A stretch of 64,000 nt of DNA, taken from Porphyra umbilicalis (Eukaryota > Rhodophyta > Bangiophyceae > Bangiales > Bangiaceae). Below are positions 15,096-51,849 of this stretch, in pieces; within the stretch, counting starts at the first letter, position 1, and each line of letters opens with the position of its first letter. Below the pieces are notes generated by a model. It worked only from the letters and a program-made list of their open reading frames with translations. It had not been told where the DNA came from and ran no database searches. The position numbers were made by a program, and so were the translations under genes. Location of the stretch: positions 1 through 64,000 of the forward strand of contig KV919146.1 of the NCBI GenBank assembly GCA_002049455.2, given 5' to 3'.

Positions 15096-15099
15096 GGCA

Positions 15100-15765: not shown

Positions 15766-17212
15766 ATGCAGCCTGCGGACGTTATGGACGACGACCTTGA
15801 GCTGGCCTCTGTCCTTTCCGTGAGCGCGTCGATGACTATGACGCGCTTGCGCACCCTGTGCCTGGAGGTGCGCCGCTCTGTGGCGGTCCGACGCCGGCGC
15901 CGGCGGCGATGCTCGCTGCCCGGTCACGTCGTGAACCTGGAGCGCGGGTTCGACATGGGCGTTAAGCGCATTATAATGGACTACTTTGGGTGGCAAGGAC
16001 GGCCGCCCCTGTACGGGGATAAGGTGTTCACCCGGCGCTTTCGCGTCGGCAGAGACGTCTTCCTGGAGATGTATGACAAGCTGCGTGGCCGCTCCTTCTG
16101 GCGTCAAGACGTCAACGCCACGGGGAGGCCACAGTCGCACGCGCTGCGGAAAGTGGTGGGCGCCTTCCGCGTGCTAGCTTACGGCGAGACCTACGACCGC
16201 GCGGACGAGTACGCACGATTGAGCAAGGCCACCATCACTATCGCCGTCCACAAGCTCATCGACTTTGTCGTGAAGCAGTACGCCGCCTCGTACCTGCGCG
16301 CGCCCTCAGACGCGGAGCTGCGCGTCGTCCTGGACCGGAACAAGGCGCGCGGATTTCCCGGCTGTATCGGCTCAATCGATTGCTCGCATCGGCGGTGGCG
16401 CTCGTGCCCGACGGCGCAGCACGGCCAGTAACAGAACCGCAAGAGCTACCGCTCGGTTGTTCTCGTGACTGTGTGAGACGAGGACCTGTACGTATGGCAC
16501 GTGAACGTTGTGGCGGAGGGCAGCAACAACGACGTCAACATGCTCAAGCTGTCACCCCTCTACCATGCCATCGTTGCCGGCATCTGGCCGCTTTGAACGA
16601 TGAGGTTTACCGCCAACAACCGGACGCGCACGATGGCGTACTACCTTGCCGACGGAATCTACCCGCGGTACGCATTTTTCGCCACCCCCTACTCTGACGC
16701 CGGTACGCCCAAGAAGCTGCACGTACAATCGCCTACAAGAAGCCCTACGCAAAGATGTTGAGCGCCTTCATGCAGTCCTCACGGGGCACTTCAACGTGTT
16801 GCTCCACCCCGCACGATTCACCACGGTTGAGAAACTCCGACAAGCGGCGCGGGCGGTCACGATTTTGCACATCATCATGGTCAAGCGGAATCGTCACAGC
16901 TACGTGAGCGTGCGCCGCGTAGCGGCGAGGCTGTACGCAGACGTGGCCAACGACAGCGCCGACGACGGCGCGGCGGACGTGGCGGCGGCCGCAGGGGAAG
17001 CGGCCGCCGCCATGCATGAGCAAGACCCTGACCCTGTCCCAGAGCAGCTCGTGGGTATTCCGGTGAACAATTCCTTCAATGCAGAGGGTACTCTGCTCTA
17101 CTCCGTTGAGGAGCGGCAGCAGACCCTTGACCGCGATGGGCTGTTGCGGGACGACTGGGCTGAGCACATCTTTCCCAACCGCGAACAGTTCCTGCTGCCC
17201 TACACAGAGTGA
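15766..17212 (+). pseudogene. Second PIF/Harbinger-type transposase (Plant_tran-like), decayed
   Basis: From the ATG at 15766 the protein starts MQPADVMDDDLELA. It contains the plant-type PIF signatures FTRRFRVGRDVFLEMYD, RGFPGCIGSIDCSHRRW (first catalytic Asp at 16378-16380), WHVNVVAEGSNNDVNML, YYLADGIYPRY (second Asp, about 16635-16660) and RKDVERLHAVL (catalytic Glu, about 16750-16765). The frame is broken by TAA at 16429 and TGA at 16474, then by at least two shifts between about 16560 and 16740; the C-terminal frame runs to TGA at 17210-17212. All three catalytic residues are still visible, so decay is moderate. It differs clearly from the intact transposase at 6341. Its last 73 bp recur at 35634 at the start of block B. 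Confidence 0.85.
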
Positions 17213-18525
17213 TGCTCGTCTTGAAGCTTGTAAAGTCTTTTTTTCCTCCCGCTGTGCGGTTTTCTTTTTCCTACAAGCGACCCGTGTACTTCGTTTTCGA
17301 AAGGGGAAGATGACTTTGGACCCTGTCTGTGCGGGTTGCACGGTGCGCGTGGTAGTGCGACTGACTTCCTAGCGGCCATACGTCCGTGTCGTCGTGCTGG
17401 TGTGCGAGTCCGTTCTCAGAGCAGCGTCCCTCCCCACGACAGCGAGGGCGACTCAGAACATAATAGGTCACGTAGCAAGGTCTGGTAGCAACGGCGATAG
17501 CGCGCACCGTCACCGCAATCGGAATGAGGGCACACTGGTAGGAGTGCAGGGGCTGAACGGCGACCTCCTTGCGCTATTGACTGAAGGGGCCGCCAAGCCA
17601 AGAACCGTCCGTTTTTCAATTGGCACGGCCCCGTGCCTGCGGGGCGACATCGGATGTGCGTGACCGCTGTATGCGTGTAGCACACTAGCGTGGGTGCGGC
17701 TCACATGCGCAGTCCGCGAGGGCGCGAATTTCCAAGCGCCGTTGTCGTTGGCTTTCGCACATCGGTCCTTTGGCTCCGTGGATCGGGCCTCGTCACATCC
17801 TCATCAAGAGATCAGCGCAGCTGCGAGTGGGCGTGTGCCGCATGCAGTCCCACGTCTCTCGCGAGTACCACTCACGAGTGCCACTCACGAGTGCCACGCC
17901 CTACACGCACCAATATGATTGGGTGTGATAGCGTCGCAAATATCTTGGTTCCAATCTTACCATGCAATGTAACCAGTACAGCGCCCTGAATGGCACTTGA
18001 GAAGCGTGCTGTGTAATCATTTTCTGTTGCTCTCAACTGATGTCGGTAACTATGTAAGTATTCCGTGCCGTCAACGGGGGTGTGCTGGTCAGTGCTTGTA
18101 CCAAAGGCCGTGATTGGGCTCGCATTGCCCACACAGCTCGAAAAAGGGCGTGATGCACGACCCTAGCTGCGAGAGTTCGTCGCTTAAGTCGCCATTCGGG
18201 CAGCATCATTTGTACAGAAATGCGCCGACGGATCCGTAAACGGGCTTATACGGCTGCGTGAGGACCTAGCAAGCTGGACGGATGTCTAGTACTTTCCCGA
18301 CCCGGCTGGGAGAGACGCGCGTGAGCACGCGGTAGCGGCCCTGATTTGTATTTGTGTGGTGGGGGTGCGTGTATTGAGGCCCGCATCAGCTCACACCTCG
18401 TGCTCGCATGTGAGAGCACCAGATCCGTTGCGCTGCGAAACTCGTGTGGCCTGCAACGCTTTGACCGGGCTTCCCCTTCCGCACCGTGCGCGTGTTCCAT
18501 GGGCCGGCCCCACAACGGCATAAAG

Positions 18526-19508
18526 ATGGCGAGTGCCCCACCACCTCCACCTCCCCCCCCTTCTTCATCACGCAGCATTTTTCTCGCCGCGTATCGCGCC
18601 CTGCTGCCGGCGAATCGTTGGCTGTAGGGCTCTTCACTGGACGCCGGCGAGGCGGCGCCCGTGTCGTCCTCGACGCAACTGGTGGATACAGTGGCCCTGC
18701 CGGTGGCCGCGTGGGCGGCTGCGGAGGGCGCGGGTGGTGGAGCAGCTGTGCCTCTTTCGCGTGCTGGTGCGGCCACCGCGGTGGCCGTGCCAGCGGCCGC
18801 CGCCGCGGCCGTGCGGGCTTTCGCGCCCGCCACCGCGCCTGCTGCCGAGCCTGCCGCAGCGCGTGCTGCCGAGCCCTCCGACGCGCCGGCCGCCGCGGCC
18901 GTGCCGGCGGCCTTGCCGGACGTTGCCGCCTCGGCCGTTCCGGCGGCCTTACCGGCAGCTGGCGCCGTAGCTGTGCCGGCGGCCGCCGCCGCGGCCATGG
19001 AAGCTGTCGCGCCCGCCGCCGAGCCCGCCGCCGCACCCGCCGCTGTGTCAGTCGCCGAGCCCGCCGCTGCGGCCGTGCCGGGGGCTTGCCGGAAGTCGGC
19101 GCTGCGACCTTCCCGGCGGGCGACGCTGCGGCCGTGCCAGCAGTGGCGTGTGACGGACGGTACGCAGCACCGACCGTCGCATCTCCGACTGCATCTGAGG
19201 CGGCGTCCTCACCAGTGTCCGATGACATCTCGGCGGTAGAGGTGGCCGCTGTGCGGCTACCTGCTGTGGTCGATTTGGAGCAGGAGGAGGAGAGGACGGC
19301 GCACGCCATGGCGGTGGCGGCCGCTCTTCGGGCGCGGGCGGCGGCGGCCGTGGCCGTCGGTCGACGCTTCACGCGCTCGATGGAGAGGCCGCCGGTTCTG
19401 AGCAAGCCGCGTCGTAGTGTGCAGCGTGGGAGGAGTAGCAGGCGGGAGCGCCGCGTGCAAGGGTACCGACGGTTCATTGACTATGAGAGGCGAGATGTAC
19501 GCGTTTGA
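18526..19508 (+). pseudogene. Ala-rich element protein, broken copy A
   Basis: This is the counterpart of the open gene at 37067. It starts [12 protein letters not shown], meets an in-frame TAG at 18625-18627, and loses frame again around 19080. The C-terminal frame to 19508 reads SMERPPVLSKPR and ends RRFIDYERRDVRV, extending past the position where copy B stops. The two copies together suggest a longer ancestral C-terminus. Composition is dominated by Ala, Val and Pro. Confidence 0.6.
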
Positions 19509-19625
19509 AGATGGGCGACACTTTTTTCAAGGAAAAAAAAGCCCGTGAGGGCAAAAAAATCTTTCCTTCCGTCGTACAACTATACCCACTCAAGCGGAGA
19601 AGCACACAAAGAAGGGAACGCACTA

Positions 19626-20080
19626 CTAGCTGCCGCTTCCAAAGATGTCACCGAGGTCGTTGTCAGGGTCATCACTCTCCTCAAAGCCTGCAGCGACCTC
19701 CCTAGAAGAAGACGAGGAGCCATAGATGGTGCGGGTCGGTATGCGGCGCAGTTTCACCGCACGTTGGCGGCGGTGGTTATGGGGGCTAGGCGCGGCTGAG
19801 GACGAGGACGCTGCGCCAGTGCGGCCACGGCGGGCGCGGCGCAGAAGCTCGTCCTCCTCTTCAGAGTCTGGGTCTTTGGGCGTGGTGTGCTGCGGCGCTG
19901 TTTCCTTGGCGAGCCGTAGAGCAGCAACTGCCTCTTGCATCATGGACGCCACGTGGGACGGCGTCTTGTTGAATGCCACCTTCTTGGTGGGCATGTACGC
20001 CGTGCGCCTCGAAGCCGGGCAGGCTTCGAGTGCCGCTGCTCGACGCGTCTGGCTTCGGTGGTCATCCCGGTCCACAACGA
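19626..20080 (-). pseudogene. C-terminal remnant of the Myb/SANT-like element gene, copy A
   Basis: About 150 codons match the last part of the minus-strand gene of block B (38351-38818), including KKVAFNKTPS, MMQEAVAALR, PKDPDSEEEDELLRRARR and a Ser-rich tail with EESDDPDNDL. Everything upstream, including the DNA-binding domain, is missing because 3.4 kb is deleted at 20080. It can no longer make a working helper protein. Confidence 0.75.
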
Positions 20081-20404
20081 AGCCCCTTGCCTCACATTGA
20101 CCTTCGCACGCTCACTGCTGGTCATGGTCTGGCGTGGGCCGCGTTCACAACTTGCAGCACATCCCGCTCTTTGTTTTCACTCGGCAACACGCCTTGAAAG
20201 TAAATCCTGTCGGACATACTTGTTCAATAATCTGATATATTCTGGATAGAATCCGTAGTCTTCTTCATATCCTTTTTGTATCGGCTGTGGATATGTATCT
20301 TATCCGTATTCAATAATTTGCGGCAAAATCTTATCTGATTCAAAAACTGCTGGTGTTGAGTATATCTGAGTGGTCACAAATTTGGCAGATTCATAAGCCC
20401 CTGT
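20081..20404. other. AT-rich filler at the deletion in block A
   Basis: These 324 bp sit where block B has 38819-42242. The left third is of ordinary composition. About 20200-20400 is strongly AT-rich (for example TTCAATAATCTGATATATTC), unlike any other stretch of this length in the window. It holds repeated TATCTGATTC/ATCCGTATTC-like motifs. No open frame of note. It may be a fragment of another transposon or organelle-like DNA used in end joining. Confidence 0.7.
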
Positions 20405-20710
20405 CCGAGACACGCGCAGGGGTGACGTCGCAGGCCGCCGTGGGGATGGGCGACACTTGGAAGGTCTGCGCGGGGACCGGGCAGGCGGCCGCTACGCTGC
20501 GGCCGCCACTGTTCCTGCAGCCTCTGTCTCTCAGTACACCACGACCGCGTGGACGGGCCAACCTGAGCGTTCTCGACTGGTGGGCCACGGCAACGGGCGG
20601 GCGCACCCTGGCGGGACTGTGGAGATTGTGTAGGTTACTGGTCCCGAGTGGCCGCGCCTGGACGACCTGGCGTGGTTTACACTGCGGACCACCGTATTAT
20701 AACCACGAGC

Positions 20711-22315
20711 ATCGTCGGCCCGGCAGGAAATCACATCGAGCATGCATCGGGCTGCATCGACCATCGAAACCGGCATTCGATGGGCGTTTTTGGGCCCTTC
20801 CGAGTCACCATCGAAGTGCATCGCCCGATGGACACACAGCCGTTGACAGGAACCCAACAGCACGTCCGTTACTTCCTCACGGTCTGCGCCGAGAGTCTTG
20901 ACCGCCGTTACAGCTAGCATTAAGCACGGGCACTCTCGCGAATGATTGGTCCAGCTGCTTTCCCCGTTGGATAAGGGACAGATCTTGCTCCGACAGGTAT
21001 GCTGCTTACTGTGGAGGGGCACTGTAAATGTAATGCAACGGGAATGTGAGCAGCAGGGTGCGGCATCCACGACGTGCTTATCTGCTCAAGGACCAAGCGG
21101 GGCCGCCAGAGCGATCGGGCTTGACTTATGTATCTGAGAATCGCTCGCGAGGAGATGGCCGCCAGCAAGGCGCGGTCTTATACTGTAGCGGGCTGACCCT
21201 TCTCTGCTTGCGCGTCTTTGGCCCTGCCGGGCGGGCATGCTCGGGGGGGGCCCTGCCCCTACGGCGCCTTGTCCCCCACCACCCAGACCGTCGCCACCCG
21301 AGCGGCCGCCGCCGCCCCCGTCGGTGGCGGTGGCGGTCGCGAGCGGGAGGAGCTTCCCCATCCCCCCCGGGCGGATGTGGCGGCGAGGTGCCCCGCCCCC
21401 CCCACCCCGTTACACGCCGTCGCCGACCGCCTCGTCGTTGGCGTGAACGCGCGCCCTCAGCGCCGCCCTCCCGTCCGACGTGCCTGTGATCCGCGCGGCG
21501 CTGGCGCGGCCGATGTGCGACCCCCGCCGGGCTCCGGCGTGGCGACGCTACCGCTACACGTTCGCGGTGGGGGGGAGGGGGGATGGGGGCGTTGGCGTGT
21601 TTGCCTGCCACCGTTTGTGGCACCTGTCCGGTCCGTCTGGCAGCAGCGGTGGCGCGTTCGCCCCCTCGTCGGCAGCCGCGCCGGCCCTCGTCTGTTGCTA
21701 CCGCCGTTGGCGTCGGGTTCTAAGGCCGTCGGCGCGGGGAGCGCACAGGGCGGGCGGAGGTCCCTAAACAGGCGGACGGATTCCGCAAAGGGGGCACCAC
21801 GCGGCGTCGCGGCGACGGTGGCCCGACCGCCGCCGCTGGATCGCCTGGCGCCCCGCCGCGGGCGTAGCTGGGGCGAGAAAGCGCCTTGGGGTGGTCGCTA
21901 ACCACGGCGACAGAGCGGCCGGGGGAGCTGTCCCGCCCCGTGACGGGGCGCCGGCAACGGTAGCGGGAGGGTGTGCCGGGGTCGCGTGCTGGCGTGCTGT
22001 CGGGGATTGCCCTGTGTCGGCCTAATTGCAATGACGCTCCGCGTCCATTACGTACCAAAATACGGTTCACCCTGGTCAAACAGTTATTGCGTTCAACTCA
22101 GTAATAGAACACTCACGCTATTGGACAAACCTCTTGCTGCGACCGTCACAAGCGACGAATCATGGGAGCGGAGATTCTGAGCCGGCTTCCTCGGCGTACA
22201 GTCATCGAGGGTTCATCGAAGATCCACCGAAAGGGCGCGTCGATGGGGTTCTCAAGGCCCCACCGGAAGCCATCGAGAATCCTTGTCGATGGATGTTTCC
22301 TGCCTGGCCGACGAT
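20711..22315. mobile_element. Inverted-repeat DNA element (family 1), complete copy inserted in block A
   Basis: The element starts ATCGTCGGCCCGGCAGGAAA and ends with its near-perfect inverse (TTTCCTGCCTGGCCGACGAT), with CATCGA motifs clustered inside both ends. Block B has the uninterrupted site at about 42548-42551 (GAGCACGTCGGCG), which fixes the insertion. A 2-bp duplication (AT, versus AC in the empty site) is possible but not certain. The interior 21190-21960 is much more GC-rich than the ends and may be captured host DNA. No transposase is visible. The right end is shared with 1-266. Confidence 0.85.
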
Positions 22316-23157
22316 GTCGGCGCGGCCCTAGACGGTGGACCCGAAAATCCCGTTCCATCCAATCGGTGTCGCTCCAGACAGGTGGCTGCATGCCCGGATC
22401 TGGCTTGATACCTTGTGATCCTCAATGAACCACCGCCATCACGGATGGCACAGGTGAACAGGTGTCCAGCCGCCCAAGTTGTCACGAGATAATGGTCAGA
22501 TCTCAGGCAGCCGATGCCTGACGTCAACCAATTGGGCGAAGCAACATCATTATGGGTGTTCCGTGGCTGCCTTACTAACACGAAAGCACTCAAGAACGCT
22601 CCCAAAAGCCACCTCTTCTGTCACAGTCTTGGCAGACACTGTTGGTATCGGAAACGCATCACCCCACCGCTCACGTTTGGGCCGCACGCGGCCACCCACG
22701 CACGAAGGTGCCAATGCCCAACGTCCTGCACAGTGAAGCACCGTACGCAGGACATAGGCCGAACACAGGGCCATCCAGCGCCACGCTCGCGGAGACACAC
22801 CGGCCTCTTTTTGGTGCACATCTCCTGTGGCTCGCGGCTGACAGTTGGCCTGACGAGCCGTGGCAGTGGGGTGGCGGCTGACGGCTAACTGCTTGACACA
22901 CGACCGGTTGTCCGCTAAAGACGCAGACGGACACCATGTATTCAGGTGGCCCGCGCACCCGACCCACATGCTATTTTCCTCAACCACGCAGGCGCCACGC
23001 AAGGGGTCGCCCGTGCTCGCCGGCAGGTTCCGCTCCGTCAGTAGGCCACAGTCTGGGGCACACCGCGATGAAAAGCGAAGACCGCCAATTGGCTGCGCTC
23101 GGCGGTTGCCCGTGCGACTCTATATCCCCGGCCGCGGCCTGTGCAGCCGCCTAGAGC

Positions 23158-23439
23158 ATGGCTGCGGCCGCGCCCCTGGTGGCCCTCTTTTCCAGCTTTG
23201 CGGGCGGAGCGCCTCGGCCATTGACGGCGCGCGCCGCGGACGCAACACGCAGCCGCGTGCGGCGATCTGGCACATGGGCTGTCGCGGTGCCCGCAGCCAC
23301 CGAGTGTGGGGCTGCCCACGCCGCCGACACGGCCGTGCCCCCAGTGAACCTCGTTGTGAGCTGGGCAGGTGGCGACCGGCTCATGGTGCGCCACGTGGAG
23401 GCCTCCAAGCGGCCGCGCACGGGGACTTTGGCGAGTTAG
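23158..23439 (+). CDS. Small open frame in the block spacer, doubtful
   Basis: A 93-codon frame starts at an ATG that follows a CTATAT motif by about 40 bp. It reads MAAAAPLVALFSSF and later ECGAAHAAD and LVVSWAGGDRLMVRHVEA. Block B keeps the second half (PPVHLVVSWAGGDRHMVRHVEAA, about 43960-44060) but in a frame different from its own ATG at 43870. The conserved half may be a fossil exon. No family is recognised. Confidence 0.25.
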   Translation: MAAAAPLVALFSSFAGGAPRPLTARAADATRSRVRRSGTWAVAVPAATECGAAHAADTAVPPVNLVVSWAGGDRLMVRHVEASKRPRTGTLAS

Positions 23440-23709
23440 AGGCGGCTGCCGCTGCGGATTGTGGGGCCGCCAATATAGAGACGGCGGCCGCCCCCCCCGC
23501 GCGAGACTTCGACAGCTTTCTCAGTGAGCGGCGCGCAGCTGACAGCGCGGACGCGCGCCGCTCTATTTCAGCCACAGTGCGGCCGTTGACTTCAGGATTG
23601 ACCGGCCGCAGTGGCCGGCCGCACGGAAGTGGGGACCGCAGCCCCCCGTGAGATTCATTTCCAGCTTGGCAAGCGTACAGCGCGCTGCTGACTTTGCGCG
23701 CTGTTGAGG

Positions 23710-24150
23710 TCGCAACGCGGCCGCATGCAGCGCCGCCGCGCACCCAGCCACGCTCCACACCGTCGCGCCATTGGCCGCGCTCGCCGACCCCCCTGTCCGG
23801 CCGGCGGCACTGGGCCTGTGCTCGGCCACACAACGGCGGCGGCGGCGCGCCCCGCCAGCGCGGCACCCGCACGTCTCACCCGCGCTTCTTTGCGCTCGGC
23901 CGCTGGCGCCCCGCCCACGGTGCGCGCCGCGGCGGGCGCCACGCGGCCGCATGCTGCGCCGCAGTGGACGCGGCCACGCCCCACGCCGTCGCGCCATTAG
24001 CCGGGCCCGGCGGCCCTCCCTGTGTGGCTGTCGGCACGGAGTCTGTGCCCGGCCGCGCAACGGCGGCGGCCGCGCGGCCCGCCTGCGCGGCACTCGTTCC
24101 TCTTTCCCGCGCTTTTGTACGCTTGGCGGCCAGCCCAGTGGCGCGTCGGC
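23710..24150. repeat. 226-bp minisatellite, block A (about 2 copies)
   Basis: GGCCGCAT starts units at 23719 and 23945, a period of 226 bp. Units contain GCGCCATTGGCC, GCCGGCGGCAC and TTTGCGCTCGGCCGCTGGCG. 226 is not a multiple of three, so frames rotate through the array and the long open frames here are not evidence of coding. Confidence 0.85.
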
Positions 24151-24234
24151 CGCCTTCGGTGCCGCCCCCGCGTCTGCTGTCTTTCCCGCCTCCTTCGCAG
24201 AGGTAGCCACTGCCGCCAGCGGGGGTGATGTTGG

Positions 24235-24498
24235 TTGCAGGGGGGGTTTGGCGCTTTCGCGGCTGCCGCGCGAGTGCTACTCTGTGTGGGGCGGGGGGCT
24301 GTGCTCCCATTGACTGGGTTGGGGTTGGGGGCGACGGCGGCCGAGGCGGGCTGTAGGGGGGGGGGGGGGGGGGGGGCGGACGCTCAGTCGGCCCAGTTTC
24401 TGGAGGCGGCGGCGTTGCTTGGCATGAGCCACACCGTTGGGTATACGGGCGGTCCGGTGGTGGTGGGGTTGATCGAGGGGGTATCGCGATTGCCTAGA
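24235..24498 (+). CDS. Hydrophobic coding fragment, copy A
   Basis: In both blocks the sequence just after the minisatellite encodes LPLTGLGLGA, an Ala/Gly stretch, LEAA.L.GMSHTVGY and GGPVVVGLI. Most of the other differences between copies are conservative, which suggests this was once protein-coding. It looks like one or two membrane helices from a larger protein, possibly a captured host exon. No start codon or family can be assigned. In A the frame continues beyond, but the shared, protein-like part ends about 24498. Confidence 0.3.
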
Positions 24499-25159
24499 GG
24501 CCGGCTTGGGCAAGACCTTCAGGAGGGAGCGGGTGCGCTGTTCATGGGAGGGAACGGGGGCATGACGAGAGGTGCGAGCCAGCTGGGGAGGGGCAGTGTG
24601 GCCGCGGGAAGCGGCAGTGGTCTGGCAGTGGTGCGTCTTTGTCCCACAAACAAACTGGGGTGCTTTCCTCTCCTTCTCAAGCAAGCGAGCAGCGCGGGGC
24701 CGAGGGTGGGCTGCAACTCGGTCAGTGGGGGAAGAGACCCCCGACTGGTCCTGTCCGACGGGGACTTCGACTCCGCGGCGGCTCTTTCTTTCCCGACAGG
24801 GCCAGATACCTCGGCGACACAGGGGCGCACAAATGGTATTGTGGGCCACTGCACGCTGAGTGCCCTTGAGCCGTTCTCCCAAATATTTCCGCATGCCAAC
24901 TGTGGCAAAAAAGTTTCAAATCAGCCTCTACGACCATGTAGAGGCCGATTTTGGAAAACTTTGGGGACAATTGCAGTGCGGGATTTTTGGGAGATTGGCT
25001 ATAAATCAAAGAATTACAGTTTACCCCTTCCAGGAGCCGCAGGAGGACGGGTCGCTCGAATATGGAAGGGATCCGAATGTCCTGCCGAGGTTTCTAATAT
25101 CTATCGATAACCTCCAAAAAAAGGCGGTTGCAGAGAGAATGGAGGCAAAGCCGACGACA

Positions 25160-30126: not shown

Positions 30127-30128
30127 TA

Positions 30129-38350: not shown

Positions 38351-41300
38351 CTACTCGCTGCCGCTGCCAGAGATGTCATCGAGGTCGTTGTCAGGGTCAT
38401 CACTCTCCTCAAAGCCTGCAGCGACCTCACTGGAAGAAGACGAGGAGCCATAGATGGTGCGGGTTGGTATGCGGCGCCGATTCACCGCACGCTGGCGGCG
38501 GTGGGTAGGGGGGCTAGGCGCCGATGAGGACGAGGACGCGGCGCCAGTGCGGCGGCGTCGGGCGCGGCGCAGAAGCTCGTCCTCCTCGTCAGAGTCTGGG
38601 TCTTTGGGCGTGGTGCGCTGCGACGCTGTGTCCTTGGCGCGCCGGAGAGCCGCAACTGCCTCTTGCATCATGGTCGCCACGTCGGACGGCGTCTTGTTGA
38701 ATGCCACCTTCTTGGTGCGCATGGACGCCGTGCCCCTCGACGCCGGGCAGGCGTCGAGTGCCGCTGCCCGACGCGTCTGGCTTCGGTGGTCATCCCCGTC
38801 CACAACGATGACGTCGGACGCAAATGCATCGCCATGGTGCACCGGATTGGATGCGGCCGCCGATGTGGTTCGTCCGTCGGCCGCGTGCGCGGCCGCCTCA
38901 CGACGCATGCGGGCGGCCGCTTCTGCACCCTTGCGCTTCGCCTCGTCTTGGGCCTTGTCTATGTGCGCCGGCCGCCGCACCTTGCCATGCGCGTCGTCGA
39001 TGCGCACCCCCTGCGTTACCTTGTGTCGCGCCGTCCCGTTGCTTGGCAACCTGTCTCGCTTGTCACGCATGGAAGGTGTCGCGCCCACGTCAACCATCGC
39101 CACGGTGAATGTGTCCTCCCCAAATATAGTCCAGCAAGGTAGATGTCTGGGACTTGGGGCGCGCGACCGTCTGGCGACCGCTAACGTCGCTGGTCTGCGT
39201 CGCGGCCACAGCGGCCGCAACTGCGGCCCCCACAGCTGGGTCAGGCACGCGCGTGCTCGTTGGAGAGGACCGCGAGCTCGGAGTTGCGGCGTCCGCGACG
39301 CCACCACAAGTTGGACCGGTTGCGGCGTCCGCGCGGCCGCCACGAGTTGGACGGTTGGCCGCGGTACCAGCGGCCGCTCGAGCTCGACACGGACGCTCAG
39401 CGGCCGCCTTGGCCACGTCATACCCCCCGCTCCGTCGAGAAGCTTCTATGGCGGCCTTTAGGGAGGCTGCACGAGCAGCCGCAGAAGCAGCACGATCGGT
39501 CGTCTGCTCGTCTGGTACGTCGCGCCGGGGCGGCTCGACGACGTCGCCGTCCTTGACTTGGTCTTCGTCCTCCGTCGCGGCCGCCCCGCCGGCGGCGGCG
39601 TCCGTCAGCCGCAACCGCCGCTGGAGCTGCCCCCGTAACCATGCCTCTCCTTCTGGTGTGGCTCGTACGTGGGGCTGTGACCAAAAGGCCACGTCATTCT
39701 GGTCCCGCATCATAGAGTTGCGCTCAGCTGACGACTTGGCGAGCGAAGCCAACGCATCGATGTGAGCGGCGGATACCCGAGCGTGCTCCGCCGCCTCTCG
39801 TGCATCCCGGCGCATTGCTGCTTTGGCGGCCTTGGTACCTACAGGCAGGTCAGTCAAACCAGCGGCCGACGGCGGCCGTTTGCGGCCGCCGCTGGCTGTC
39901 TCCTTGTCGTCCGTTGCTGTCAGGCTAGGATCTCCATAGACCTTGTACCGCATCTTCTTGAGGGTATTGATGGACTCCTCCGGGCTGAACTTGGGGAAGT
40001 GACGCAGGTAGGTCCACACCAGGTAGAAAAGGCACTGCGTGGCCGCCTCCTCCCGGCGCACGCCGGCGTAAGGGTCGTTGTTGTTGTACAGCGCTACGGC
40101 GGCCATGTCCATGTCTGCCTCCGTCGGCGACCCCGTCAATTCCCGCTGATGCGCGGAGATGAGGCATCCATTGAGTTTGTGGACGGCGTTGGTGATGTCA
40201 TAGCGGAACATGCGCTCAATGCGCTTGTCCGACCGCTCCAGGCGCTTGTCCAACTCGGGGAGGTCGGCCTTGATCATTAAAACGCGGATGTTGACGACCA
40301 TCTTGTCGTAGAAGGCTTGCATACCCTGGCAGGTCCCGAGCACAGGGTCTGTCGTCGTCTGCCCCCACCCCTTACCAACGCAGAGCGCCTCATTCGCCGT
40401 CCACGCAATGCTGCGGCTGCTGCCCTTCTTGGGCACGGGCCCAACGATTTCAAGCGCCTCGCTCGCCCGCCGAGAGGCATCCGCCTCCACCGCTGCCATG
40501 ATAGCCGAGTCTTCCCGGGAGTTGAGTGACGCAGCGGCCGCGTCCGCGGCTGCCGCGCCATCCGCATCACTGGAGGCCTCCGCAGGGGAGGCCAAAGCAC
40601 CACGTGCTACGCGTCCGACGACGGGGGGCAGAGCTTGTCGGCCTCCTTCTGGTTGTCCTCCTCGTCCGTCGGATGGGGGGGCCGTTGGTTCTGCTGAAGC
40701 CATTGCTGCCGCCATTGCGCGGACAAGGCCGCCTCCTCGTCTGCTGCCGACGGGGACGCTGCCGCAGAGCTGGCGAGCTTTTCCAGCAGCGAACCGACGA
40801 AGTCCGTGCGCACCGTCGGTGTCCGGCGCACTTTCCCCGTCTCGTCGCCTGCTGAGCTCGGCTCCGCTAATGGCGACGGCGTCGGGATCTCCTGGTGTGG
40901 CGGATGCGTCGGAGATCTCCCTGCGGCCGCCTCCCGCGGCGGCCGCGCCGCACGTGCCGCAGGTGGCTCCGGCGGTTGTGACGTGGGAGGCCGCTGGCCT
41001 GCCGCGACGTGCGGCCTCGGAGGGGTCGTCGCCCGTTGGTCCCCGTACTGCAGGCGTGCCCAGGGCGGAGTCACCGGCCTGGCTGGCGGAGGCGTCAGTG
41101 GCCGCTGGCGCTGCTCCAGCGGCCACCAATCTCTTGGCTGCCACTGCGGCTGCGGCCGCTGCGGCGGCGGCCCTTCCGCCCGCGCTGCCTCTTGACGGTG
41201 AAACTCGTTGGGCAGGCGGGGCGGGGGCCGCCCGTACCACTTCGCCTCTTGGTGAAGAACCTCCCCGTACGGCGGACGGGGCGAGCCCCAACGACGGGGC

Positions 41301-42098
41301 AAATGGTGTGGAAGGGCGTACTCCGCGGGCGTGGGACCCGACCGAGGCGGAGGCGTTCGAGAGGGACCGAGACCGCGGCGGGGAGAGCCCCACCGAGGGT
41401 AAGAAGCACGAGGGAGAGGGTGTGAGGGGCGTCGGGATTCCCACAGAGGGGGGGAAACACGGGGGGGATGGTAGGGCGCGTGAGGGGAGGTCCACCGCGG
41501 GGGAGAGGCGCGTGGTGGGGAGTACACCGGGCCTGGAAAGCTCCACCGAGTGGGCGAGGCGCGTGAAGGGCCGCACGCCGAGACACACCGAGGGGGAGAT
41601 GTGTGAGGAGGGGCCAGTGGCTCGTGCACGTGTCGGTGCACTTGGTCCAGGAGCGGTCGGTGCCCCACTGGTTGCACAGCGTGCGGCGGCCGCTGCGGCT
41701 GCAGCGGCCGCACCGGCGGCCGCAGCGGCCGCTGAGGCGGCGACAGCGGCCGCAAAGGCGCTACGCTCGACCCGTGAGTCGGAAAAGACTGACCCGCCTG
41801 CGTCGTCGGCCGCACAACGCGCGACACGGCCGCCGCCGACCACGGGCAAAGGCACTCGGGCGGGCACAGAGGGTGGTGCGGGCCGATGTCCTGCGCCCGC
41901 CGGCACATGACGCACAGCTGACGCAGCCCGCGCCGCCGCTTCGTCCTGCTGATATAGGGCAGAGGAGGCCCATAACACCAGTGCGGACGCCTCGGCGGAG
42001 GCGGTGGCGGCGGCGGGGGGGGAGGGGGGCAGTCCATGTTGGGGTGGAGCGGGGAGAACAGTGCGCGAGGTCGCCTGCGAGGTCCGCCGCGGCAACAT
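38351..42098 (-). CDS. Myb/SANT-like (Harbinger ORF1-type) protein, one frameshift
   Basis: From the ATG at 42098 a long Ala/Pro/Ser-rich N-terminal half leads to a recognisable domain (about residues 555-690): SIAWTANEALCVGKGWGQ, DPVLGTCQGMQAFYDKM, ERMFRYDITNAVHKLNG and LTGSPTEADMDMAAVALY. This pattern of a Trp start, GT-x-Q, a conserved R-x-x-x-I and a late ALxxY is that of the trihelix/Myb-SANT and NAM-associated proteins that accompany plant PIF transposases. A helical region with a QPHVRATPEGEAWL motif follows. The frame ends at about 39090, but its neighbour continues FGEDTFTVAMVDVG to TAG at 38351-38353. One base is therefore extra or missing near 39120-39135. Convergent with the upstream transposase, as expected for a helper that brings the transposase to element ends. 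Only the last 150 codons survive in block A. Confidence 0.75.
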
Positions 42099-42482
42099 GC
42101 GCGCGCGCACGTCGTGGCGGCGGAGTCCGTCGGTCGATGGAAATGAGAAAGGTGTGATCGCCGACGTCCGTTCGCATACCCTTCACAAACAGAGGTCCGT
42201 CACACAAGAAGGCTCACTCCAGATGCGCCCAGACGGTTATATCCGAGACACGCGCAGGGGTGACGTCTCAGGCCGCCGTGGGGATGGGTGACGCTTGGAA
42301 GGTCTGCGCGGGAACCGGGCAGGCGGCCGCTACGCTGCGGCCGCCACTGTTCCTGCAGCCTCTGTCTCACAGTACACCACGACCGCGTGGACGGGACAAC
42401 CTGAGCGTTCTCGACTGGTGGGCCACGGCAGCGGGCGGGCCCACCCTGGCGGGACTGTGGTGATTATGTAGGTTGCTGGTCC

Positions 42483-43468
42483 CGAGGAGCCGCGCCCGGA
42501 CGTCCTGGAGTGGTTTACACTGCGGACCAGCGTCTTAAAACGACGAGCACGTCGGCGCGGCCCTCGCCGGTGGACCCGAAAATCCCGTTCCATCCAATCG
42601 GTGTCGCTCCAGACAGGTGGCTGCATGCCCGGATCTGGCCAGATACCTTGTGATCCTCATTGACCCACCGCCATCACGGATGGCACAGGTGAACAGGTGT
42701 CCGGCCGCCCAAGTTGTCACGAGATAATGGTGAGATCTCAGTCAGCCGATGGCTGACGTCAACCAATTGGGCGACGCAACATCTGATTGGGTATTCCGTG
42801 GCTGTCTCACCAACACAAAAGCACTCAAGCACGCTTCCAAAAGCCACCTCTTCTGTCACAGTCTTTATAGACATTGTTGGCATCGGAAAGGCATGGCCCC
42901 ACCGCTCACGTTTTGGCCCCACGCGGCCACCCACGCACGAAGGCGCCAATGCCCACCGTCCTGCACAGGGGAGCACCGTACGCAGGACATAGGCCCGAGA
43001 AGCCGCGCCCGGACGTGCAAGCGTGGGTTACACTGCGGACGACCGTCTCAAAACGACGAGCACCATCCAATCAGTGTCGCTCCAGACAGGTGGCTGCATG
43101 CCCGGATCTGGCCAGATACCTTGTGATCCTCAATGACCCACCGCCATCACGGATGGCACAGGTGAACAGGTGTCCGGCCGCCCAAGTTGTCACGAGATAA
43201 TGGTGAGATCTCAGTCAGCCGATGGCTGACGTCAACCAATTGGGCGACGCAACATCTGATTGGGTATTCCGCGGCTGTCTCACCAACACGAAAGCACTCA
43301 AGCACGCTTCCAAAAGCCACCTCTTCTGTCACAGTCTCGGCAGACACTGTTGGTATCGGAAACGCATGGCCCCACCGCTCACTTTTTGGCCTCACGCGGA
43401 CAACCACGCACGAAGGCGCCAATTCCCTTCGTCCTGCACAGTGGAGCACCGTACGCAGGACATAGGCC
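42483..43468. repeat. Direct duplication of about 513 bp in block B
   Basis: CGAG(G/A)AGCCGCGCCCGGACGT starts units at 42483 and 42996. Both contain TTACACTGCGGAC, CAGACAGGTGGCTGCATGCC and the CAACCAATTGGGCGACGCAAC stretch in split form. The second unit lacks about 40 bp. Block A has a single copy (22330-22770). No gene is apparent. Confidence 0.85.
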
Positions 43469-44351
43469 GAACACAGGTCCATCCAGCGCCACGCTCGCGG
43501 AGACATACAGTTCTCTTTGTGGTGCACATCTCACGCGGCTCGCGGCTGACAGTTGGCCTGACGAGCCGTGGCAGTGGGGTGGCGGCTGACGGCTAACTGA
43601 TTGACGCACGACCTGTTGTCCGCAACAGACGCAGACGGACACCACGTATTCAGGTGGCCCGCGCACCCGACCCACATGCTGTTTTCTTCAACCACGCAGG
43701 CGCCACGCGAGGGGTCGCCCGTGCTCGCCGGCAGTTGCCGCTCCGTCAGGAGGCTACAGGCTGGGGCACACCGCGATGAAAAGCGACGGCCGCCAAGTGG
43801 CCGCGCGCGGCCACGAGTTGCCCGTGCGGCTCTTTACCCCCGGCCGCGGCCTAAGCGGCCGCCTAGAGCATGGCCGCGGCCGCGCCCCTCGTGGCCCTCC
43901 TTGCTAGCTGGCTCACGGGCTGTCGCGGTGCCCGCAGCCACCGAGTGTGGGGCCGCCCACGCCGCCGAAGCGGCCGGGCCCCCGGTGCACCTCGTTGTGA
44001 GCTGGGCAGGCGGCGACCGGCACATGGTGCGCCACGTGGAGGCCGCCAAGCGACCGCGCGCGGGGTCTTTGGCGCGTCGGGGGCGCCTGCCGCCGCGGAT
44101 TGTGGGGCCGCCAATATAGAGACGGCGGCCGCGCCCCCCGCGCGAGTCTTCGCCAGCTTTCTCAGCGAGCGGCGCGCAGCCGACAGCACGGACGCGCGCC
44201 GCTCTATTTTAGCCCCAAGCGCGGCCGCCGACTTCAGGATTGGCCGGCCGCAGTGGCCGGCCCCACGGAAGTGGGGACCACAGCCCCCCGTTAGACTCAT
44301 TTACAGCTTGGCGAGCGGACAGCGAGCTACTGACTTCGCACGCTGTGGAGG

Positions 44352-45250
44352 TCGCAACGCGGCCGCATGCAGCGCCGCCGCGCACCCAGCCACGCCCCCT
44401 GCCGTCGCGCCATTGGCCGGGCCCGCCGCCCCCCCTATGCGGCCGGCGGCACGGGGCCTGTGCTCGGCCACACCACGGTGGCGGCCGCGCGCCCCACCCG
44501 CGCGGCACCCACAAGTCTCGCGCGCGCTTCTTTGCGCTCGGTCGCTGGCGCCGCGCCCACGGTGCGCGCCGCGTCGGGCGCCACGCGGCCGCATCCTGCG
44601 CCGCAGCGAACGCGGCCACGCCCCACGCTGTCGCGCCATTTGCCGGGCCCGTCGGCCCCCCTGTCCGGCCAGCGACACGGGGCCTGTGCTCGGCCACACC
44701 ACGGTGGCGGCCGCGCGCCCCACCCGCGCGGCACCCGCAAGTCTCGCCTGCGCGTCTTTGCGCTCGGTCGCTGGCGCCCCGCTCACGGTGCGCGCCGCGG
44801 CGGGCGCCACGCGGCCGCATGCTGCGCCGCAGCGGACGCGGCCACGCCCCGCGCCGTCGCGCCATTGGCCGGGCCCGCCGCCCCTCCCTGTGCGGCCGGC
44901 GGCACGGGTTCTGTGCCCGGCCGCGCAACGGCGGCGGCCGCGCGCCCCGCCCGCGCGGCACCCGCACGTCTCACCCGCGCTTCTTTGCGCTCGGCCGCTG
45001 GCGCCCCGCCCACGGTGCGCACCGCGGCGGGCGCCACGCGGCCGCATGCTGCGCCGCAGCGGACGCGGCCACGCCCCGCGCCGTCGCGCCATTGGCCGGG
45101 CCCGCCGCCCCTCCCTGTGTGGCCGGCGGCACGGGTTCTGTGCCCGGCCGCGCAACGGCGGCGGCCACGCGCCCCGCCCGCGCGGCACCCGCACGTATGG
45201 CCCGCGCTTCTGTACGCTTGGCGGCGAGCCCAGTGGCGCGGCGGCCGCCT
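44352..45250. repeat. 226-bp minisatellite, block B (about 4 copies)
   Basis: GGCCGCAT starts units at 44361, 44587, 44813 and 45040. Unit sequence matches the array of block A, with twice the copy number. Three plus-strand frames and one minus-strand frame are open for 300-570 codons here; since the period is not a multiple of three, this is a composition effect. Confidence 0.9.
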
Positions 45251-45318
45251 TCCGCGCCGCCCCCGCGTCTGCCGTCTTCCCCGCCTCCTTCGCCTCCTTC
45301 GCCACTGCCACCAGCTGG

Positions 45319-45582
45319 GGTGGTGTTGGTTGCGGGAGGGGGTTGGGCACTTTCGCGGCCGCCGCGCAAGTGCTACTCTGTGTTGGGGGGGGGGCTGTGC
45401 TCCCATTGACTGGGTTGGGGTTGGGGGCGGTGGCGGCCGAGGCGGGCGGGGGGGGGGGGGTGGGGGGGGGGGCGGACGCTGTGTCGGCCCAGTGGCTGGA
45501 GGCGGCGGTGTTGGTCGGCATGAGCCACACCGTTGGGTATGCGGGCGGTCCGGTGGTGGTGGGGTTGATCGCGGGGGTGTAG
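45319..45582 (+). CDS. Hydrophobic coding fragment, copy B
   Basis: Reads VGCGRGLGTFAAAAQVLLCV, LPLTGLGLGAVAAEAG, a poly-Gly stretch, then WLEAAVLVGMSHTVGYAGG and VVVGLIAGV before TAG at 45580-45582. It corresponds to 24235-24498 in block A. Likely the C-terminal end of a small membrane protein or of a captured exon. Confidence 0.3.
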   Translation, partial: GGVGCGRGLGTFAAAAQVLLCVGGGAVLPLTGLGLGAVAAEAGGGGGVGGGADAVSAQWLEAAVLVGMSHTVGYAGGPVVVGLIAGV

Positions 45583-46751
45583 CGATTGCCTAGAGGCCGT
45601 CTTGGGGAAGACCTTCAGGAGGGAGCGGGTGCGCTGCCGGTGGGAGGGAACGGGGGGAACCCTGCATGACGAGAGGTGCGAGCCAGCTGGGGAGGGGCAG
45701 TGGTCACAGGAAGCCGCAGCGGTGTGGCAGTGGTGGGTTTTTGTCCCACAAACAAACTAAGGTGCTTTCCTCTCCTTCTCTAGCAAGCGAGCAGCGCGGG
45801 GCCGAGGGTGGGCTGCAACTTGGTCAGTGGGGGGAGAGACCCCCGACTGGTCCTGTCCGACGGGGACTTCGACTCCGCGGCGGCTCTTTCTTTCCCGACA
45901 TGGCCAGCTACTTCGGCGACACAGGGGTGCACCAACGAGGGGATGGTATTGTGGGCCACTGCACGCTGGGTGCCCTACAGCCGTTCTCCCATAACTTCCG
46001 CATGCCAACTGTGGCAAAAGAGTTTAAAATCAGCCTCTACGACCACGTAGAGGCCGATATGGAAAACTTTGGGGACAGTTGCAGTGCGGGATTTTTGGGA
46101 GATCGGCTGTACAACAAAGAATTATAGTTTACCCTACCCAGGAGCCGCAGGAGGACGGGTCGGTCGAACTTGGAAGGGATTCGAATGTCCTGCCAGCCGA
46201 GGTTTCGAATATCTATTGCTAACCTGCAAAAAAGGGCGGTTGCAGAGAGAAGGGAGGCAAAGCCGACGTCACAGAAAAGATGTCGGAGTGGCTGTTCGAC
46301 AAGCCACGATCGAACTATCGGCTGAGAGTTGCCGCCAGTAATCTTGTAAGCCAATCAGCGTGTCTTGCACCAGTCACGCAGAGCCATTGCAACCCACAAT
46401 GAGATTTCCTGAGATTTTTGGGCCGCTTGCTTGGGCCAGGAGAGGGCATGGAGAGGGTTCTGGGCCAGACCTGTGTTTTCTCATGAGATCAACAAACTTC
46501 TTCAGATTTCTTGAGATCCTGATGAGCGTTTTCAGTGCGCAGAGCTGCATGATGAGACTGTGTAAGGAACTCGCATGATTTCTAGCCTTTCCATTGGTCC
46601 ACGTACGCTGTCGAATGATTGCAACCACTCTGCAACCACCATTTTTTGGAGGTTAGCATTAATACCGTCCCTCTATCTCAATATGCGTACGCTCTCACCT
46701 ACACCCACTTACACAGACAAGACGCACTACAGAGGCTATGGAAAAGGCGCA

Positions 46752-49382
46752 CTACAGACGCTGGCGCTTCTGGAGCCTCCCGGCGGACGCCGCAAGCTCC
46801 CGCACCCGACGACGGCGCCTAATATCAGTCTCGTCACCGCCACCGTGACCGTGCATGTACCACTCGTACCCCACGCGACCATCCCTCTGCCCACGAGCGG
46901 CATGCGGCGCATGCGGCACACGTGCAGTGCCTGCTGCGTGACCGTGCACCTCCACACCAAAGCTGGCGAGGTGGCATGCGACGTGCTGACGTAAAGAGCA
47001 CGTCAGTGACTTGGGCTTGACAGCCACATTCATGCCCTTCATCACCTGCACAGAAAACACCGACTTGCCCCTGGCTCCAGGCGCGCCGCGAAGAGGAGCT
47101 GCCGCTGCCCCAGCCCCGAGGGCACTCCGCAGCGGCACGGCAGCGGGAACAGCCGGCAGTAGGCCGGTGCCTACCGTCGCCAGTGGTGCGGGGGCGCGTC
47201 CCGCACGCGCTCCAGCCAGCACGCGCTGGCACGATGACCGCCAATCGATGGCACTCATGTCCTCCACAGCGTCGGTCACTGACATGTGCCTAATGCCACC
47301 CACTGGCGAGGGTACCGACGCGACGGCGGCCGACGTCTTGCTCTCCGACGCGACGGCGGCCGACGTCTTGAACTCCGCGTCGGTAGACGTCGACGCACTG
47401 TCGTCCGACGGCAACCATTCCGAGCCCGAGGATGGGACAAACCAAGATGTCGAAGACGATATCGTGGGCGTCGGCGCATAGTAAGGAGAGACCGTTTTGG
47501 ACTCGTACGACGTGCACGAGGCCGTCGAGCCGCTTTGCGCGACGGCCTTGACGGCGGCCGCTGCTTCTGTCTTGACGGAGGCCGCCGCCTCTGACTCGAC
47601 GGCGGCCGCAACCGCGCCCGCGAGCGGATGCTCCTCCACGGCGGCCGCCGCCGCCTCTGCCCTGAAGGCGGCCGCCACTGCGCCCGCCAGCGCCTGCTCC
47701 TCCGCGGCTGCCGAGGAAACGGCCTTCACAGCGGCCGCTGCCGCGCCCGCGAGCGGCAGCTCGTCCGCAGCAGCCGCCGCCGCCTCGGCCTTGACGATGG
47801 CCGCCGCGTTGACCTTGACGACGGCCTCCGCCTTGACCTTCACGGCGGCGGCTACCGCGCCCGCCAGCGGCTGCACCTCCCCCGTCTCGGCCTCGATGGC
47901 GGCCGCCGCCACAGCCTCGATGGCGGCCGCCACCGCGCCCGCGAGCGGCTGCTCCTCCACGGCGGCCGCCGCCTGGGCCTTGACGGCGTCCGTCACCGCT
48001 CCCACGAGCGACTGTTCCTCCGCCGCGGACTCCACCTCTGCCTTGGCGATGGCTGCTGCCACCGCCTTGACGGCGGCTGCCGCAGCGTCCGCGAGGGGCT
48101 GCTTCTCCGCAGCGGCCGCCACAGCTGCCGCGAGCTGCCGCTGCACCGTGGCGGCCGCCACATCGTCCTTGAAGGTGGCCTCCGCCATGTGCTTGACGGC
48201 GGCCGCCGCCGCCTGGTACTTGAAGGCGGCCGCCACCGCGCCCGCGCGCAGATGCTCCTTCGCAGCGGCCGCCGCCTCCGCCTTGACGGCGGCCGCCACG
48301 GCGCCCGCGACCGGCTGCCTTTCCGCGGCGGCCGCCGCCTCCGCCTTGACGGCGGCCGCCGCCTCCACCTTGACGGCGGCCGCCACGGCGCCCGCGACCG
48401 GCTGCCTTTCCGCGGCGGCCGCCGCCTCCGCCTTGACGGCGGCCGCCGCCTCCACCTTGACGGCGGCCGCCATCGCGCCCGCGACCGGCTGCCTCTCCGT
48501 CTTCACCTTGACGGCGGCCGCCGCCGCCTGGTACTTGACAGCGGCCGCCGCCGCGCCCGCGCGCGGATGCCCCTCCGCGGCGGCCGCCGCCTCCGCCTTT
48601 ACGGCGGCCGCTGCAGCGCACGCGAGCTGCTGCTCCTCCGCGGCGGCCGCCGCCACCGCCTTGACGGCGGCCGCCATGGCGCCCGCGCCCGGCTGCTTCT
48701 CCGCCTTCACCTTGACGGCGGCCGCCGCCGCCTGGTACTTGACGGCGGCCGCCGCCGCGCCCGCGCGCGGATGCCCCTCCGCGGCGGCCGCCGCCTCCGC
48801 CTTGACGGCGGCCGCTGCAGCGCACGCGAGCTGCTGCTCCTCCGCGGCGGCCGCCGCCTCCGCCTTGACGGCGGCCGCCATGGCGCCCGCGCCCGGCTGC
48901 TTCTCCGCATTCGCCTTGACGGCGGCCGCCGCCTTGTTCTTGAGGCCTGCCGCCGCCGCGCCCGCAGGCTGCTGCTCCACCACGGCGGCCGCCGCCTTCA
49001 CCTTGACGGCAGCCGCCGCCTTGTTCTTCTGCCCTGTATTGAGGGCGGCCGCCACCGCTCCCACTTGCAGCTGCATCGCCGCGGCCGGCGCCGACGCCGT
49101 TGAGCCGCCGGGCGACGCGGCGGCTTGAAGGCGCTGACGCCGCAGTACCTCTTTTGTACCGGCTTTCCGGCCGGTCTCGATGGCCCACGCGCGGTCCTTC
49201 TCCCACTCGCGCGCAGCCTTCAGTGCCACGGCCGCGTCGCGCGCCACCGTGGATGCCGCTGCGGCTTCGGCGCGCAGCCGTGTGGCCTCTGCACACGCGC
49301 GCGCGATGCCTCGTACTGTGCTGGCCGCCAGCGGCGTGACACGCGCCCGGCCGGTGTCGCCCGCTCTCGAAGAGGAATCCAT
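46752..49382 (-). CDS. Lys/Ala-repeat protein of the duplicated element, open copy B
   Basis: An 876-residue frame from the ATG at 49382 (MDSSSRAGDTGRARVTPLAA). Residues about 15-100 are helical and coiled-coil-like (ARACAEATRLRAEAAAAS). A long central part repeats VKAEAAAA and QPLAGAVAAAVK motifs. At DNA level this shows an 84-bp unit (48290-48480) and a 204-bp unit (starts 48501 and 48705), both multiples of three. The repeats resemble histone-H1- or LEA-type Lys/Ala helices that could bind DNA. The C-terminus is non-repetitive: DAVEDMSAIDWRSSCQRVLA, CHLASFGVEVHGHA and an Arg-rich end with RRRRRVREL and LQKRQRL. Frame is kept for 2.6 kb despite repeat turnover, which argues for coding. No transposase lies beside it other than that of the duplicated unit. 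Role unknown. Confidence 0.6.
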   Translation of the reverse strand: MDSSSRAGDTGRARVTPLAASTVRGIARACAEATRLRAEAAAASTVARDAAVALKAAREWEKDRAWAIETGRKAGTKEVLRRQRLQAAASPGGSTASAPAAAMQLQVGAVAAALNTGQKNKAAAAVKVKAAAAVVEQQPAGAAAAGLKNKAAAAVKANAEKQPGAGAMAAAVKAEAAAAAEEQQLACAAAAAVKAEAAAAAEGHPRAGAAAAAVKYQAAAAAVKVKAEKQPGAGAMAAAVKAVAAAAAEEQQLACAAAAAVKAEAAAAAEGHPRAGAAAAAVKYQAAAAAVKVKTERQPVAGAMAAAVKVEAAAAVKAEAAAAAERQPVAGAVAAAVKVEAAAAVKAEAAAAAERQPVAGAVAAAVKAEAAAAAKEHLRAGAVAAAFKYQAAAAAVKHMAEATFKDDVAAATVQRQLAAAVAAAAEKQPLADAAAAAVKAVAAAIAKAEVESAAEEQSLVGAVTDAVKAQAAAAVEEQPLAGAVAAAIEAVAAAAIEAETGEVQPLAGAVAAAVKVKAEAVVKVNAAAIVKAEAAAAAADELPLAGAAAAAVKAVSSAAAEEQALAGAVAAAFRAEAAAAAVEEHPLAGAVAAAVESEAAASVKTEAAAAVKAVAQSGSTASCTSYESKTVSPYYAPTPTISSSTSWFVPSSGSEWLPSDDSASTSTDAEFKTSAAVASESKTSAAVASVPSPVGGIRHMSVTDAVEDMSAIDWRSSCQRVLAGARAGRAPAPLATVGTGLLPAVPAAVPLRSALGAGAAAAPLRGAPGARGKSVFSVQVMKGMNVAVKPKSLTCSLRQHVACHLASFGVEVHGHAAGTARVPHAPHAARGQRDGRVGYEWYMHGHGGGDETDIRRRRRVRELAASAGRLQKRQRL

Positions 49383-50402
49383 GGCCACTCGCCGTGCGCC
49401 GGCGCGTACGCGGCGCCGCGTGTGCGTGGACGTCGGAGGATGGGGTGGGGGTGGGGGGGGGCGGGAAGACGCGCGCGGCGACAAAGGCGGGTGGGTAGCG
49501 GAGCTCTCCTGGACATATCGGTGCCGGATCACAACGGATGGAGCTCCCCTACACCGACCGGCGCCGACAGCACGTGCGTGCGTCATGCCGACTTCGACCT
49601 CAGCTGACTGGCACCCCGAGAGGCGCCACGTGCACGTTGACCACATATAGAAAACAGTCAATCGCTGCACCATCTGCGTGCACGGTGCCTGGACGGCTGA
49701 CGCGTGCCTCCCAGGGGAAGCAAAACAATACCGTCTGCCGGTGACATCTGACTACAATCGAGGCACTGCCACGGCTCGTTTTGGTGCCTGTGGGGGTCGC
49801 CGTGGGGCCTCTCTCGCGTGGAACTGGGCCTCAATCACAGCGGTGCAACACCCCCGCTCGGGCATCCCGTCGCGGGCATGGACCACCAGCACACGCGCAC
49901 ATCAACGTTGGAGCCCTCGGGCTGCAGGAGGGACCCCCGTCAGGCGCCAGATTGTGCCAGATTGCGCCAGAGCCTCTTGGACGCCAGACTTGGCACGTGG
50001 TGGACACAGTCGTGGCACGACGATCGCGCCGACGACCGGGTTTTCGGGCCATATTGGCCATGTCAACTACGAACGTGTCCCCTTCAATCACACGATCGGT
50101 GTCGGTCTGCGCGTCGATCGCGGCGGAATCGCAGCCGGCGGCCCTCTTTCCTACATGTGGCGTACTATGGAATCAAGAGCGAACGGATTGCGACCGGCAG
50201 TCTTTCACCGACCCTGTTCGCATGTTCACCGATGATCCCTCCAATGTGTTACTCTTTCGCTTGTAGTAGCCCCCTTTCTGCGTAACTCCATTGCGGATCT
50301 TTGCTCGTCCGTCGAACGCCGTCGCGGACCCAATCAGATGCACTCACGTGGCACTTTCATTTAACCATTCGAGTGTCCCAAACGGCACGTTGGTGGCTCC
50401 GC

Positions 50403-51835: not shown

Positions 51836-51849
51836 CGCCGCTACCTACC

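Follow-up and report, generated by a model that had tools for sequence, protein, structure and literature searches.

What is the multi-gene unit that occurs twice within this stretch of the Porphyra umbilicalis genome: one unusually large PIF/Harbinger-type element carrying additional genes, or nested transposons duplicated as a segment? The first-pass annotation of the window (the whole 64,000-base stretch analysed, positions 1 to 64,000 of contig KV919146.1) had left both readings standing. PIF/Harbinger elements are usually a few kilobases long and the superfamily is known mostly for small elements. Our analysis supports the first reading in part, through a pair of candidate ends and a transposase domain in one copy. 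We incline, if only slightly, to the view that the unit is one large PIF/Harbinger-type DNA transposon with accessory genes, and that its second copy is a second insertion.

We compared the window with itself and recovered the proposed colinear chain between positions 17140–29300 (copy A, plus strand) and 35634–50402 (copy B, plus strand, without its left end), the main pieces of which are 87.6–93.1% identical. The repeat itself is certain. A global MAFFT alignment of both blocks paired unrelated inserts, and piecewise alignments were used instead, giving 9,670 columns in four segments with identities of 92.8%, 93.4%, 91.7% and 91.0%. Thus, the earlier size of close to 9.8 kb per block holds. 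Omitted from these columns were A 20081–20403, A 20725–22326, B 38809–42241 and B 42996–43468, the last being the second copy of a local duplication. With three tandem arrays masked, the copies diverge by 8.1% (610 of 7,544 columns). The values for five segments along the unit, 7.6, 7.6, 9.1, 8.5 and 7.6%, show no detectable difference (chi-square p 0.32), and this evenness suggests that the unit was most likely copied once, as one piece. The window has a GC content of 66%, many short GC-rich tandem repeats, a single N and, over its 64,000 bases, no Rfam match at gathering score. Chance low-complexity similarity might be suspected in DNA of this composition, but the two copies align at 91.9% over about 7.5 kb of unmasked sequence and share one common edge. 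This refutes such an explanation, to which we attach practically no weight.

The two margins of the unit differ in quality. Both copies finish in GTTGGTGGCTCCGC and then diverge, as expected from the sharp right edge described previously. As a check on dispersal, the right flanks (29301–35631 and 50403–64000) were compared and gave no match (word size 7, E 1e-3), while the left flank of copy B is lost at the N (position 35632). The first-pass annotation had also begun copy B at this point; that edge does not stand as an edge of the unit. The homology starts two bases past the N and lies within the transposase gene, and so is not an end of the unit. With only one N in 64,000 bases, its location within two bases of where the homology starts is difficult to account for other than by a seam, and we consider position 35632 to be probably an assembly seam. 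The position and orientation of copy B relative to copy A depend on it. Thus, the duplication stands, while its direct orientation rests on this apparent seam, and, with copy B beginning at what looks like a join, any size given for the element is provisional. The sequence to the left of the N had no match to the left part of copy A, in which positions 12466–17133 are without a counterpart in copy B.

The same observations bear on an assembly artefact, in which diverged alleles or unrelated contigs would have been joined at the N and the same-chromosome duplication would be false. Besides the proximity of the N to the homology edge, an ORF open on its left and a transposase on its right would fit such a join. 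Alleles would normally share flanks, however, and the right flanks here are unmatched; a divergence of 8.1% is also high for alleles on general expectation. We regard an artefact as quite unlikely, and its effect would fall mainly on where copy B is placed and less on whether it is a second copy. The ORF that is open up to the N (34346–35631, plus strand) had no usable Pfam match (best E 0.18); by eye, we take it to be retrotransposon gag-like.

Next, we searched for the left end of the element. The first-pass annotation had suggested looking upstream of 15766 for a left edge with a matching inverted repeat and a 3-bp duplication, and a candidate was found at 12466, the only site in the upstream scan (positions 20–17139) with a 10-bp inverted match to the right end and the same outer 3 bp. 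Here, the putative left end of copy A reads GCGGAGCCAC, with GCT just outside it. The putative left terminal inverted repeat, GCGGAGCCACAGAC (12466–12479, plus strand), matches the right terminal inverted repeat of copy A (29287–29300, minus strand) perfectly over the first 10 bp, at 12 of 14 and at 16 of 30 positions. Identical putative target-site duplications, GCT, lie outside at 12463–12465 and 29301–29303. Copy B shares the right edge, and its right terminal inverted repeat lies at 50389–50402 (minus strand). Terminal inverted repeats and a 3-bp target-site duplication, as in PIF/Harbinger elements, are therefore observed in copy A only, the one copy in which both ends are visible; for this copy, we consider the ends of the element probable. 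The target GCT fits neither TNA (classic) nor ANT (Pangu), which weighs against a Harbinger-type element; we regard the target motif as a trait of subgroups and assign the element to neither of these two.

The site at 12466 draws its weight from the right end at 29300, which had been fixed beforehand by the homology between the copies. Under a first-order Markov model, 0.06 matching 10-mers were expected upstream, and none of 400 simulations had a 10-mer match together with the duplication. When right edges were instead sampled from the window itself as a control, 13 of 4,000 had a partner with 10 bp plus 3 bp, as did 188 right-end positions out of 45,990 in a larger control; 46 of these 188, the true one included, were not low-complexity by a dinucleotide rule. 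A blind position in window DNA has such a partner in 0.1–0.4% of cases. In a scan with 16-bp ends, 14 GC-rich pairs reached 14 or more matches out of 16 along with a 3-bp duplication; these outscore the pair 12466/29300, which was absent from them. When the right end was left free, 25 pairs (10 bp plus 3 bp) were found between 9000–15649 and 17300–29399, of which 23 were dropped as low-complexity by the dinucleotide rule. The sole other survivor joins 12879 with 22369 (42604 in copy B), just past the Myb-like gene described below, with CGC outside.

This second pair outlines an alternative: a smaller Harbinger, for example 12879–22369 with the transposase, the Ala-rich gene and the Myb-partner-like gene, might lie inside a segment duplicated up to 29300/50402, the enclosing segment being host DNA or nested transposons. 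The terminal pair with CGC on both sides is consistent with this, as is the absence of a Pfam match at either end of the Lys/Ala-repeat gene, and autonomous Ectocarpus Harbingers and Nuwa elements are described with two genes, transposase and partner (PMC12477816 and PMC12730594). However, scaling from the control of 45,990 positions predicts about five non-low-complexity pairs of this kind by chance, and 12879/22369 matches at 10 of 14 positions versus 12 of 14 for 12466/29300. A scan for conserved nested elements in copy A, requiring 10 bp and a duplication of 3 bp or more, left a single internal pair that was not low-complexity, and this pair is not mappable to copy B. Furthermore, a segmental duplication leaves the edge of the duplication itself bearing an inverted repeat and a 3-bp duplication, for which the blind chance is that of the control. 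We judge a smaller Harbinger within a duplicated segment to be rather unlikely, and the following description treats 12466–29300 as one putative element.

The identity of the transposase is certain. In copy A, a decayed PIF/Harbinger-type DDE transposase occupies 15652–17212 (plus strand; the first coordinate marks where the open frame begins and not an assigned start codon). Three consecutive pieces exceed the 22-bit cut-off of PF04827 (Plant_tran): 15652–16428 (E 2.7e-11, 43.9 bits), 16603–16758 (E 2.4e-6, 27.8 bits) and 16604–17209 (E 1.2e-7, 32 bits). In-frame stops at 16429, 16474 and 16594 are followed by a frame change. The transposase previously assigned to the unit is thereby confirmed as a family, while the two blocks share only its last 23 codons and stop (35635–35706 in copy B, plus strand); the rest is in copy A, within 15652–17212. 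This tail gave one unusable match among PDB sequences (E 0.37) and no relatives in viral contigs or in bacterial and archaeal genome contigs. A second Harbinger-like transposase lies elsewhere in the window, in a 442-codon ORF at 6275–7600 (plus strand; PF13359, DDE_Tnp_4, E 5.4e-24). Its resemblance to the first is remote, with 27% identity across 137 columns (E 3.8e-6), and among the nine GC-rich pairs returned as its candidate terminal repeats none was convincing.

Facing the transposase on the minus strand is a gene region that resembles the DNA-binding partner of Harbinger transposases. In copy B it spans 38354–42182 and consists of an ORF of 1,030 codons (39093–42182) and a second ORF (38354–39445) that overlaps it and has an acidic tail. 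The 1,030-codon stop-free stretch exceeds those in all 300 simulated sequences (maximum 613). The only family listed for the partner-like ORF is PF14303 (NAM-associated C-terminal domain), below its cut-off of 27.7 bits throughout: E 0.033 and 15.5 bits for the whole ORF, E 0.0024 and 19.1 bits for a 299-residue part, and, as the best value, E 4.7e-4 and 21.5 bits for a 151-residue part. Residues 562–794 alone returned only GATase (E 0.25); this piece cuts the PF14303 stretch (722–829), which pieces containing the whole stretch recover. We take PF14303 to be a domain of Harbinger partner proteins, and, by eye, the middle part of the ORF resembles the Harbinger Myb/SANT partner. No Myb or SANT model matched the ORF in the Pfam scans. 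The Myb-like segment gave no fold model good enough for a structure search (mean pLDDT 37.9). None of its 12 matches among PDB sequences was usable, the best being to a DUF4200 protein at E 0.0055, and no relatives were found in viral contigs. The Myb/SANT-like gene proposed earlier is thus moderately supported by PF14303, below cut-off, and is mostly present in copy B only; we regard a partner gene as plausible. Copy A has lost most of it, keeping 455 bp of the overlapping acidic-tail ORF as a 3′ remnant (19626–20080, minus strand). At the site of the missing part, the 323 bases of A 20081–20403 have no detected match in copy B.

The other two genes are rich in repeats. The Ala-rich gene is open in copy B (37067–38176, plus strand, 369 residues, assigned from repeat phase and third positions) and has a stop after 33 codons in copy A (18526–19448, plus strand, its end set by alignment to copy B). 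The Lys/Ala-repeat (KA) gene is likewise open in copy B (46755–49382, minus strand, 876 residues, from its ORF and repeat phase) and is frameshifted relative to it in copy A (26049–28290, minus strand). The KA protein of copy B is 35.5% alanine with a pI of 9.4. Its stop-free stretch of 999 codons exceeds those of all 300 simulated sequences (maximum 701); the longest stretch of the Ala-rich gene, 399, falls within simulation (maximum 467). The KA C-terminus had no relatives in viral contigs, and B 46270–47377 had none in a plasmid search. Including the transposase and the Myb-partner-like gene, all four genes of copy A are broken or mostly missing; at least this copy is decayed.

We then examined whether these frames bear marks of translation. 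All 178 repeat pairs in KA and all 29 in the Ala-rich gene were in phase; these pairs overlap, and the counts are therefore not independent. A 227-bp tandem array in copy B (44353–45218) was dismissed as a gene, with one of seven repeat pairs in phase, and is probably noncoding. Among repeat units, 44% of differences fall at third positions in the Ala-rich gene and 34%, no excess, in KA. Of the indels between the copies, 8 of 12 within the two repeat genes have lengths divisible by three, compared with 3 of 24 in the remaining sequence (Fisher p 0.0018), an excess that partly reflects repeat-unit lengths. Third positions hold 83 of 215 differences in KA, 24 of 57 in the Ala-rich gene and 17 of 34 in the acidic tail. 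The pooled figure, 124 of 306 (40.5%), gives a two-sided p of 0.009, and the excess per gene is weak (one-sided p 0.06, 0.10 and 0.03, respectively). No phase pattern was visible by eye in 300-bp windows of the alignment. From these sequence comparisons we see weak to moderate support for translation of the genes during the divergence of the two lineages.

Two insertions distinguish copy A from copy B. The larger, 1,605 bp (20711–22315), has 21-nt inverted repeats that are 95% complementary; its right end resembles positions 2–266 of the window, and a clean target duplication was not readable. The smaller, 403 bp (25160–25562), has 42-nt inverted repeats that are 83% complementary and is flanked by ACA and GCA where copy B has TCA. 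Both occur in copy A only, at sites uninterrupted in copy B, and thus post-date the split of the copies. The smaller insertion is one of three related copies of an element of about 400 bp (604–998, 25160–25562 and 29595–29994) whose 42-nt inverted repeats begin with TATTGCTGA; of these, the copy at 604–998 seems shortened at its left. Between copies A and B lies a weak match to a CACTA-type tnp2 (31680–32672, plus strand, PF02992, E 6.5e-4, below cut-off). Elsewhere, the window holds a 968-codon ORF with FG-GAP repeats (1519–4422, plus strand, PF01839, E 5.3e-12) and, at 56981–61237 (plus strand), BACK (PF07707, E 4.7e-6) and BTB/POZ (PF00651, E 9.2e-16) domains in separate ORFs. Together with the plant-type transposase, these domains suggest eukaryotic DNA. 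Parts of 56669–57517 resemble parts of 59726–60388, and the window ends in a tandem repeat (62570–64000) with a 653-bp offset and 98.8% identity.

Comparison with known systems indicates where the putative element would be conventional and where it would depart. Harbinger transposition requires two proteins and produces a 3-bp duplication, according to PMC2836001. Canonical PIF/Harbinger and Nuwa elements share with the unit a PF04827-type DDE transposase, terminal inverted repeats, a 3-bp target duplication and a probable DNA-binding second gene. The facing transposase and partner-like ORF match the tail-to-tail genes of Ectocarpus Harbingers, whose targets are TNA or ANT (PMC12477816). Unlike the usual PIF/Harbinger element, the putative element would measure about 15–19 kb, has two further repeat-rich genes and is flanked by GCT rather than TNA or ANT. 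PMC12730594 describes Harbinger relatives with added genes, as here: HarbingerS, with a SET methyltransferase, and PHISTA, with a TET/JBP dioxygenase and a third protein, as well as the Myb/SANT partner of Nuwa elements. The additional genes here are of low complexity, unlike those of HarbingerS and PHISTA, and neither a SET nor a TET/JBP domain appeared in the selected ORFs of the unit, a subset of its frames, that were scanned against Pfam. By the same source, PHISTA also differs in its TA duplications and in third proteins that lack a Myb/SANT domain. Polintons/Mavericks and the KDZ, EnSpm and Sola-1 elements of Ectocarpus (>10 kb) are large and hold several genes, as here, but their transposases differ (PMC6431247 and PMC12477816). 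In its coverage of giant transposons, the main text of PMC6431247 contains neither "Harbinger" nor "PIF", and a giant Harbinger with these genes was not recognised among titles and abstract openings of the open-licence papers searched. The right end, used as a DNA pattern, was absent from viral contigs and from bacterial and archaeal genome contigs; relatives were sought in bacterial and archaeal, viral and plasmid collections, where silence says little.

We propose that copy A is an element of 16,835 bp (12466–29300), or about 14.8 kb without its two later insertions, and that copy B would represent another insertion of this family, with its left part cut off at the apparent seam. The left part of copy A together with copy B gives an upper size of 19,443 bp. 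From left to right, such an element would carry the DDE transposase and the Ala-rich gene on the plus strand, then the Myb/SANT-type partner-like gene and the KA gene on the minus strand; the right-most 1 kb or so, after KA, would be without a recognised gene. If it was mobile in the past, the DNA-binding partner may have recognised the ends of the element and the transposase would have cut them and pasted the element by a 3-bp staggered cut, with the two repeat-rich proteins as passengers or accessories. A bolder reading, which we hold as a tentative possibility, is a giant Harbinger lineage of 15–19 kb with a GC-rich target and two permanent low-complexity accessory proteins that serve the element. 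In that lineage, the Ala-rich protein and the 876-residue Lys/Ala/Glu-repeat protein might act, for example, as scaffolds that bind DNA ends or chromatin.

The locus also serves as a warning: where DNA is rich in repeats, a join marked by a single N can mimic the edge of an element. If the ends assigned here are right, PIF/Harbinger elements can reach giant size and bear two additional repeat-rich genes. This would widen the superfamily and would offer an example for studying how accessory proteins serve a cut-and-paste transposon.
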